This document shows, piece after piece, positions 24,959 through 28,806 of a stretch of 39,920 nt of DNA. The number at the start of each line of letters is the position of its first letter. The stretch's first letter is position 1. The notes under the pieces are model-generated. The model saw nothing but the letters and a program-made list of their open reading frames with translations, had not been told where the DNA came from and searched no databases. The DNA lies in contig PBSS01000047.1 in NCBI GenBank assembly GCA_002726315.1, positions 1-39,920 of the forward strand. The letters run 5' to 3'. Source of the stretch: Acidimicrobiaceae bacterium. Its GTDB lineage: Bacteria > Actinomycetota > Acidimicrobiia > Acidimicrobiales > MedAcidi-G1. The position numbers were made by a program, and so were the translations under genes.

Positions 24959-25366
24959 TCAGACGGGTTCCTCGACCAATTCGATCAGGGTTCCATACGA
25001 CCCCGTCGGGTGGACAAAGGCGATGATGGTCCCCCGGGATCCCGGCCGGGGTTGTTCGTCGATGGCCCGACCACCCGCTGCAACGACCGCCTTCAGGGCG
25101 CTGGCACAATCATCGACGCGGTAGCCGATGTGATGGAGACCCTCTCCACGCTTGTCTAGGAAGGTCGCTACTGGCGAATCAGGTCGAGTCGGCGTGGTCA
25201 ACTGGATAAACGAACCACCCACCTCCAACAGGGCCTCTTCCACGCCGTCACGGTCCACGATCTCACGGTGGCACACCTCAGCCCCGAATGCCCTCCGGTG
25301 GTAGTCGATGGCAGCGTCCAGGTCATGGACGGCAATGGCCACATGGTCTATTCGGGTCAGGAGCAA
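24959..25366 (-). CDS. mce: Methylmalonyl-CoA epimerase
   Basis: TRIDHVAIAVHDLDAAIDYHRRAFGAEVCHREIVDRDGVEEALLEVGGSFIQL...KRGEGLHHIGYRVDD...HPTGSYGTLIELVE. TTG start with AGGGAG upstream. Confidence 0.94.
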   Translation of the reverse strand: MLLTRIDHVAIAVHDLDAAIDYHRRAFGAEVCHREIVDRDGVEEALLEVGGSFIQLTTPTRPDSPVATFLDKRGEGLHHIGYRVDDCASALKAVVAAGGRAIDEQPRPGSRGTIIAFVHPTGSYGTLIELVEEPV

Positions 25367-25406
25367 GCCTCACGCTCCCTGCAGGCAATTTCTATTTGTA
25401 TCCGAC

Positions 25407-25435
25407 TTGTCACAACTTTGTTACTGTTGTAATGT
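25407..25435 (+). promoter_or_regulatory. Sigma70-like promoter TTGTCA-N17-TAATGT
   Basis: TTGTCA at 25407-25412 and TAATGT at 25430-25435 with a 17-nt spacer, in a noncoding gap, facing the plus strand. Confidence 0.4.
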
Positions 25436-25441
25436 AATCGC

Positions 25442-25530
25442 AACAAGTTGGGATATCCCCTCCACCCAACCCGAAAGCGCTCCCTGACAAGGCTGCTGTC
25501 GCCCGCAACAGTCCGGGGGGCGTTTTCGCG
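25442..25530 (+). ncRNA. Candidate ~90-nt two-hairpin small RNA (C-rich loops), novel or 6C-like
   Basis: Hairpin 1: GTTGGG (25447-25452)/CCCAAC (25465-25470), loop ATATCCCCTCCA. Hairpin 2: CGAAAGCGCTCCCT (25472-25485) pairs with GGGGGGCGTTTTCG (25515-25528), with an inner GG..GCTGT/ACAGTCC stem and loop CGCCCGCA. Confidence 0.38.
25472..25528. terminator. Long stem resembling an intrinsic (possibly bidirectional) terminator
   Basis: AAA-GCGCTCCC...GGGGGGCG-TTTT: GC-rich stem flanked by A and T runs, between recR and mce. Confidence 0.5.
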
Positions 25531-25565
25531 TCTACTGCTAGTCAGAGTTACCCACAGACCAGTCA

Positions 25566-26189
25566 TCAGTGGCCATTCCCCGCATCTAGTCCACTAGCAA
25601 CGTGCCTTCTACCCTCAAGGGCCCTCCCCAGAGTCAGTTCGTCGGCATACTCAAGGTCCCCGCCAACTGGAAGGCCACTGGCGATCCTGGTCACCTCCAC
25701 ACCAAGTGGTCCGAGCAGACGAGCTAGGTACATAGCCGTCGCCTCCCCTTCGATATTCGGGTTGGTCGCCAGAATCACCTCGGTAACCGACTCCTGTTCC
25801 AAGCGACCCAGTAACTCGACAATCTTCAACTGATCGGGACCAACCCCGTCAATCGGACTGATGGCACCACCAAGTACGTGGTACCTGCCATGAAACCCAC
25901 CTGTACGTTCTAGAGCCACGATGTCGCGTGGCTCCTCGACCACGCAAAGCACGCCAGGCTCACGGCGATCGTCAGAACAGATCAAACACATCGGTTCTTC
26001 ACTGATATTGAAGCACCTTTCACAGAAGCGAATACGATCCTTCATCTCGCTGATCGCATCAGTCAGTCGCGTAGCGTCCTCTGCAGGAGACTTGAGTATG
26101 TGAAACGCCAACCTCTGGGCTGACTTGGGACCGATCCCGGGGAGCCGACCGAGTTCATCAATCACCTTCTGGACGGCATCGGCGTACAC
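25566..26189 (-). CDS. recR: Recombination mediator RecR
   Basis: [27 protein letters not shown], zinc motif [101 protein letters not shown]. Confidence 0.97.
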
Positions 26190-28021: not shown

Positions 28022-28108
28022 CGGAGGGAGTGGGATTCGAACCCACGGTGACTGTGAGGCCACACACGCGTTCCAGGCGTGCCGAATCGTCCGCTCTCGC
28101 ATCCCTCC
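28022..28108 (-). tRNA. tRNA-Ser (anticodon GGA)
   Basis: Minus-strand GGAGGGATGCGAGAGCGGACGATTCGGCACGCCTGGAACGCGTG...GTGGGTTCGAATCCCACTCCCTCCG; anticodon arm CACGC-CTGGAAC-GCGTG, long variable arm, discriminator G, no encoded CCA. Confidence 0.95.
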
Positions 28109-28168
28109 CGGATCCCGCCCATGGGCTGGATCCGGGCGACAAGGGTATCGTTACCTCACACCCGTTCT

Positions 28169-28283
28169 GGAGTGTGGCGGTCGGGTCCTGTGCGACCGGG
28201 ACCCGTGAACCGGGTCAGGGCCGGAAGGCAGCAGCCCTCAGCGGAAACCCCGGAGTGCCGCAGACCACCTGGCCGCCACTCTC
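28169..28283 (+). ncRNA. ffs: Bacterial signal recognition particle RNA (4.5S, small type)
   Basis: Diagnostic apical motif GGGTCAGGGCCGGAAGGCAGCAGCCCTCAGCGG; ends pair AGTGTGGCGGTC with GGCCGCCACT. Pairing ACACCCG/CGGGTGT may extend it to about 28157-28296. Confidence 0.92.
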
Positions 28284-28326
28284 GAGGGCGGGTGTTACCC
28301 ATGCTTGGGGGCCTATCGTCAACAAG

Positions 28327-28806
28327 ATGGACCTAGTACCAGACGAGCCGACAATGCCATCAGACGACGACCTGATGGAATCAGCCCTTGTCGAGGCCCG
28401 AAGAGCCAGCAAGCTCGGGGAGGTACCGGTCGGAGCGGTAGTCGTAGCAGGTGGGCAGATCGTGGCCAGGCGCCACAACGAACGTGAAGCCACCATAGAT
28501 CCAACGGCACATGCCGAGGTACTCGCGCTACGAGATGCCGCAGCCAAGTTGGGGTCATGGCGTCTCGAAGATGCAACCCTCGTTGTGACCCTTGAGCCTT
28601 GCCCGCTCTGTGCTGGAGCCGCCTGGGCATCTCGCATAAGTCGAGTCGTGTGGGGAGCCCCCAACCCAGAGGCGGGTGCGCTGGGATCGCTGTACCACCT
28701 GGGGTCTGATCCCAGACTGAACCACGAATTTCGCGTCACCGCAGGTATCCGTGAAGACGAATGCGTGGCCGTGCTGAAGGAGTTCTTCGACCAACGACGA
28801 AACTGA
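28327..28806 (+). CDS. tadA: tRNA adenosine(34) deaminase
   Basis: LMESALVEARRASKLGEVPVGAVVVAGGQIVARRHNERE, HAEVLALRDAA, LEPCPLCAGAAWASRISRVVWGAPNPEAGALGSLYHL. Confidence 0.95.
   Translation: MDLVPDEPTMPSDDDLMESALVEARRASKLGEVPVGAVVVAGGQIVARRHNEREATIDPTAHAEVLALRDAAAKLGSWRLEDATLVVTLEPCPLCAGAAWASRISRVVWGAPNPEAGALGSLYHLGSDPRLNHEFRVTAGIREDECVAVLKEFFDQRRN

Follow-up and report, generated by a model that had tools for sequence, protein, structure and literature searches.

The window analysed here (the whole stretch of 39,920 nucleotides of contig PBSS01000047.1, from an Acidimicrobiaceae bacterium of the MedAcidi-G1 lineage) carries two minus-strand ORFs, mce (24959-25366; methylmalonyl-CoA epimerase-like, a name taken from the earlier annotation only) and recR (25566-26189), and the question raised by this locus is what occupies the gap between them. 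The first-pass annotation had read there, on the strand opposite to both genes, a promoter followed by two hairpins with C-rich loops, and had proposed an autonomous small RNA, either a divergent 6C RNA or something new. Does the gap hold such a gene, and what would its RNA do?

Promoter, hairpins and distribution of the module

The putative promoter (25407-25435, plus strand) consists of a -35 hexamer TTGTCA (25407-25412) and a -10 hexamer TAATGT (25430-25435), and both its coordinates and its spacer of exactly 17 nt proved correct, as did the placing of mce and recR on the minus strand. The spacing was expected to be conserved in relatives, and it is indeed fixed at 17 nt in the 39 sequences compared, in which information rises sharply at the -35 and most bases of ACTTGTMA and GTAAYRT (TTGTAAYRT) are invariant. 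A scan with the sigma-70 consensus does not list this promoter because its match falls below the scan threshold; its support comes from conservation. The predicted RNA itself (about 89 nt; 25442-25530, plus strand), with its start placed 7 nt past the -10, would be divergent from mce and convergent with recR, the 3' end of which faces the RNA terminator. The fold of 25442-25530 has an energy of -39.5 kcal/mol (z -3.9), and none of 200 shuffles was as good. The opposite strand folds too (z -2.2), which palindromic stems would lead one to expect, and therefore folding alone gives no direction.

Hairpin 1 (25447-25470, plus strand) reads GTTGGG[ATATCCCCTCCA]CCCAAC in the DNA, as first described, with GUUGGG/CCCAAC as stem and AUAUCCCCUCCA as loop. 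Judged by its sequence, the CCCUCC of this loop is an anti-Shine-Dalgarno (anti-SD) motif and the predicted seed of the RNA; the fold leaves this motif unpaired. Both C-C-C-U-C-C and CCCAAC are invariant in 27 aligned sequences and are the same in 38 family contigs of GTDB r220, the cells scored as "other" stemming from genus g5, in which the hairpin 1 stem lies one alignment column off. As hairpin 1 does not vary, covariation is uninformative there, and the case for it is the invariance of stem and loop.

Hairpin 2 (25472-25528, plus strand), the predicted intrinsic terminator, has the announced outer stem CGAAAGCGCUCCCU/GGGGGGCGUUUUCG of 14 pairs, three of them G-U, plus an inner stem. Compensatory changes had been suggested as a check for both stems; hairpin 1, with its fixed sequence, offers none, and in the terminator stem both partners change in 12 of the 14 pairs (0/500 shuffles). 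The cells counted there number 47, as compared with 11 for shuffled alignments, and sliding the partners lowers the count greatly. The U run is weak in the genome studied and in some genera and clear in relatives, AT-rich genera having textbook terminators (e.g. ...GCAGGCGTTTATTTTT). The loop of hairpin 2, CGCCCGCA, recurs in genera g1, g4 and g6 and is absent from g2, g3 and g5. Of the two C-rich loops first described, that of hairpin 1 is thus upheld by its invariant CCCUCC and that of hairpin 2 is not conserved between genera.

A DNA search of relatives recovered the module in almost every genome of the same family, a marine Acidimicrobiales family of MedAcidi-G1 type, from which 30 loci in about six genera (at least five) were kept. 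Outside the genus the identities are down to 72-84%, and other families of the order gave no convincing match. All 30 loci have the promoter and both hairpins in the same recR-mce gap, and wherever a family locus is of sufficient length recR and mce flank the RNA, both on the opposite strand. Across 84,980 GTDB species, the exact pattern of -10 plus hairpin 1 matched 38 contigs of marine Acidimicrobiia, titled among others as MedAcidi-G1, as Candidatus Microthrix sp. UBA bins or as Acidimicrobiales MAGs. It also matched three Calothrix contigs, which we take as chance matches, as they have another context and no common neighbours and resemble a dispersed cyanobacterial hairpin repeat. The exact hairpin 1 pattern was likewise confined to one family among 395 genomes of the class. 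A covariance model (R1), which gives 25442-25530 a score of 100.4 bits with this very sequence in its training set, was run on 298 genomes drawn across the order and found the RNA in 11/11 of those from the family; the best score among the 287 others was 22.6 bits (E 0.04), which is at noise level. A weak outside match (L082) was rejected, being without hairpin 1. In these searches the predicted RNA is specific to this one family, and it is single copy, further copies being absent.

The features expected of an independent small RNA gene can therefore be read from the sequence, namely a conserved promoter of its own (the activity of which is predicted) and a covarying intrinsic terminator. The original proposal of an autonomous RNA is borne out by conserved hexamers and spacing, terminator compensation, fixed strand and synteny over 39 sequences, and we regard such a gene as highly probable. 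A small ORF or leader peptide was rejected, since the length of the module varies across these sequences, is not a multiple of three in 32/39, and so is out of frame and not coding.

Solute-binding protein genes as predicted targets

The loop of hairpin 1 would expose CCCCUCC(A) as a seed for pairing with G-rich SD sequences (GGAGGGG), and such pairing would block ribosome binding. The main targets would be mRNAs of solute-binding lipoproteins (SBPs) of ABC transporters, above all an amino-acid-binding protein (SBP_bac_3) and a Bmp-SBP_bac_3 fusion.

About 94% of the assembly of the genome studied was rebuilt and 1264 genes were predicted with a simple home-made coding-plus-SD gene finder, which is crude and gives credit for SD-like motifs to targets and background equally; these genes were ranked by the duplex energy of their start region with the 12-nt loop. 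A search for targets with the exact 8-mer TGGAGGGG gave barely more than its reversed control, most matches not being real gene starts, and tests based on gene starts were therefore used instead. First of the 1264 comes an SBP_bac_3 lipoprotein gene on contig C29 (-17.8 kcal/mol; start region ATATCGGAGGGGA; ATATCGGAGGGGAAAATTATG being the sequence given for the 5' region of the gene), its product of basic amino acid type by an NCBIfam match below cut-off, and sixth comes a Bmp-SBP_bac_3 lipoprotein (start region ATATCGGAGGGGT). Rank 50 is taken by an SBP of NMT1 type and rank 83 by another Bmp; of the six SBPs, two are unremarkable. GAGGGG occurs in 1.7% of the gene starts of this genome and GGAGGGG in 9/1264, two of the latter being the first- and sixth-ranked SBP genes. 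A general lipoprotein effect was rejected, as all lipoproteins of this genome taken together are not enriched (p 0.16) and enrichment is seen in SBPs only. The genes of this genome have no general preference for GGAGGG over GGAGGT/A/C.

Lipoproteins that join several different ABC solute-binding domains (Bmp, SBP_bac_3 and OpuAC by Pfam) in one chain, an unusual architecture for transporter binding proteins, lie at L336:1321-3906 (plus strand), on contig C39 of the genome studied and at L341, and loci of this kind have long open frames in several genomes. Two SBP genes stop at the edges of contigs C39 and C49 with an identical peptide, VAYDFGVTEDVVRIGAIADLSGPFAPLVIQI, which probably belongs to a repeated domain at which the assembly is interrupted.

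Hand counts in 16 family genomes found GAGGGG in 15/15 starts of the SBP_bac_3 ortholog and GAGGG in 9/9 starts of the Bmp-SBP_bac_3 fusion. The two groups together have a GAGGG SD in 24/24 starts from five genera, against about 6% of genes (background in the five genera being 4-8% for GAGGG and 1-4% for GAGGGG), and 17 of 32 lipoproteins at Bmp/SBP_bac_3 loci have GAGGGG. Out-of-sample SBPs of another type (PF13458) carry GAGGG in 12/17 starts and GAGGGG in 9/17 (hand count), and SBP_bac_3 lipoproteins of other families, which lack the RNA, carry them in 2/25 and 0/25 (hand count). The base after GAGG is G in 21/24 family SBPs versus about a quarter of background starts. The usual complement of the 16S tail is GGAGGU; the additional G extends pairing to the loop but not to the usual 16S tail. 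When 13 homologous clusters were given one vote each, AGGGG and GAGGG still led all 5-mers of the SBP start regions, with a modest enrichment (1.5e-5 and 8e-4, before correction for 1024 5-mers) that is smaller than without collapsing. Some SBPs are without the motif, and loop and SD do not co-change cleanly between genera (g3 has CUCCCUCC versus GGAGGGG; targets in g1 vary past the G run). These counts are evidence for an SD signature shared among the SBPs of the family, with the RNA, we infer, as its cause.

The explanation that we consider best, and toward which we lean slightly, is a trans-acting RNA of about 89 nt that would repress SBP translation through its anti-SD loop in the manner of AbcR and would thus tune nutrient import, probably by turning it down. 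Our main reservation is that the RNA may be real and autonomous and yet act otherwise, as a broad anti-SD or translation modulator or as a protein-binding RNA, the SBP genes not being special targets, and we give this possibility substantial though lesser weight. All the evidence at the level of the gene stands without the target claim; the seed is short, a generic SD complement with which many mRNAs could pair, and other strong predicted partners in this genome look, by eye, like unrelated genes such as homologs of PlsY, RsmH and CysN. The 6C-like RNAs of sister genomes described below could be further readers of G-rich SDs, which we count against SBP genes as the particular targets. However, the start regions of SBP genes have precisely the extra G residues that take the motif past what the ribosome itself would pair with. 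Several SBP families that are not related to one another have this extension, and it is rare in relatives without the RNA. Repression of SBP translation as by AbcR in Alphaproteobacteria is predicted here with roughly even confidence, and the target class makes a good, testable prediction.

Alternative natures of the module

The first-pass annotation had itself offered a cautious alternative, in which the gap holds a bidirectional recR terminator beside a minus-strand mce promoter and no small RNA. Hairpin 2 is near-symmetric and could terminate minus-strand transcription from recR too, and its U run is weak in this genome. On the other hand, the conserved promoter reads plus, pointing away from mce, and the conservation of hairpin 1, with its invariant loop, is left unexplained. 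T residues after the stem are more frequent on the plus than on the minus strand in 25/39 sequences, the minus strand being favoured in 3/39, and the module itself is intact throughout, at distances from mce that vary between 80 and about 290 nt. We consider this alternative improbable.

Could this gene be a divergent but true 6C RNA, relocated to the recR-mce gap? 6C is an actinobacterial RNA, and like 6C/B11 (RF01066) the RNA studied here has two hairpins, a similar size and a C-rich loop that could pair with G-rich sequence; action independent of a chaperone is plausible for both. Nevertheless, the proposed 6C membership did not survive: no family of Rfam 15 matches 25200-25800 at E <= 10, no Rfam match was found in 14 homologous loci at E <= 5, and the 6C model has no match over the genome studied (an 88% complete assembly). 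Six-C runs in both loops were not found, as the conserved C-rich loop is that of hairpin 1 only (CCCCUCC, with CCCUCC rather than C6) and the second loop is unconserved between genera and not C-rich in several; the locus differs as well. Moreover, sister genomes have, at other places, distinct full-length 6C-like RNAs in which both loops are six-C runs (CCCCCC); these score 46.2 bits in G007, 39.8 in G012 and 36.3 in G003, all below the RF01066 gathering score of 47, so that carriers of the RNA can have a 6C-like RNA besides. A relocated 6C therefore seems very unlikely; the RNA is, on this comparison, of a different family, alike in general idea. It is the other option, something new, that holds, and a new, previously unnamed family of autonomous small RNA genes is strongly supported.

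The 6C-like RNAs at L061 (1501-1586, minus strand), L063 (1501-1585, plus strand) and L064 (1501-1582, plus strand), below the Rfam gathering score, are apparently missed RF01066 members in marine Acidimicrobiales. Elsewhere in the window, a small SRP RNA gene (28179-28277, plus strand; 70 bits) is overlapped by the upstream part of a tadA-like ORF (28030-28806), and the real start of the tadA-like gene should be downstream of the listed one.

Finally, that the block is a conserved DNA element (a protein binding site or a replication-related repeat) and not an RNA, as might be suggested by the TYGTMA direct repeats at 11 and 9 bp within the promoter in the 39 sequences, is scarcely credible, since the compensatory changes in the terminator stem and the lack of further copies both fit an RNA gene.

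Candidate regulation and likeness to AbcR

A direct repeat, GTCAC-N6-GTTAC (25409-25424, plus strand), overlaps the -35 and the spacer and is a candidate regulator site, its pair of GTMA 11 bp apart being kept in nearly all of the 39 sequences. It matches the published GTnAC-n6-GTnAC consensus of the GlnR box, bound also by MtrA in Streptomyces (PMC10704036). Two other perfect intergenic copies of this box were found in the genome studied, and one of these precedes a putative gene of contig C8 by 19 nt. The same genome encodes, on contig C37, an MtrA-like protein (best NCBIfam match, below cut-off with 263.6 vs 300 bits). An OmpR-type regulator such as MtrA or GlnR might thus control the small RNA through this repeat, and repression would be expected of a regulator sitting over the -35; control of this type, with the binding protein proposed from the box, is speculative. 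The promoter motif as an element shared by a regulon was rejected, as this genome has no second full match.

Pairing of the loop with SDs would probably proceed without Hfq, as for the C-rich loops of mycobacterial 6C, which are reported, in work cited in PMC8628891, to bind mRNA without a chaperone. A close parallel is with AbcR1 and AbcR2 of Alphaproteobacteria, where the loop anti-SD UCCUCCC of AbcR1 forms eight base pairs at the ribosome binding site of livK and so represses it (PMC3712013). Both systems have an anti-SD in the loop of a 5' hairpin (UCCUCCC there, CCCCUCC here), a 3' intrinsic terminator and, as targets, SBPs of amino-acid ABC transporters, shown there and predicted here. 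They differ in that there is no sequence relation (no Rfam family, hence no AbcR, matches the region at E <= 10), no tandem pair and no A/U-rich Hfq site here, and two hairpins rather than three. The CcsR / ar14 / anti-hemB type CCUCCUCCC sRNAs also have loops complementary to SD sequences, but again without an Rfam match at E <= 10, and they belong to another phylum and have another layout.

To our knowledge, no Hfq homolog and no general RNA chaperone are established in the actinobacterial phylum, and we know of few sRNAs with known targets in actinobacteria. In its widest form, our proposal is tentative and perhaps doubtful: a new Hfq-independent sRNA family whose single anti-SD loop would repress a whole set of lipoproteins that bind nutrients, a regulator of MtrA/GlnR type being in control. 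If true, an uncultured ocean lineage would have evolved, by convergence, its own counterpart of AbcR/GcvB. What these open-ocean actinobacteria offer is a well conserved single-copy RNA whose anti-SD seed does not vary and whose predicted target class stands out statistically. Should the predicted role be true, sRNA control of uptake by ABC transporters would have arisen independently outside Proteobacteria, and there is now a defined RNA family to seek in marine metatranscriptomes.
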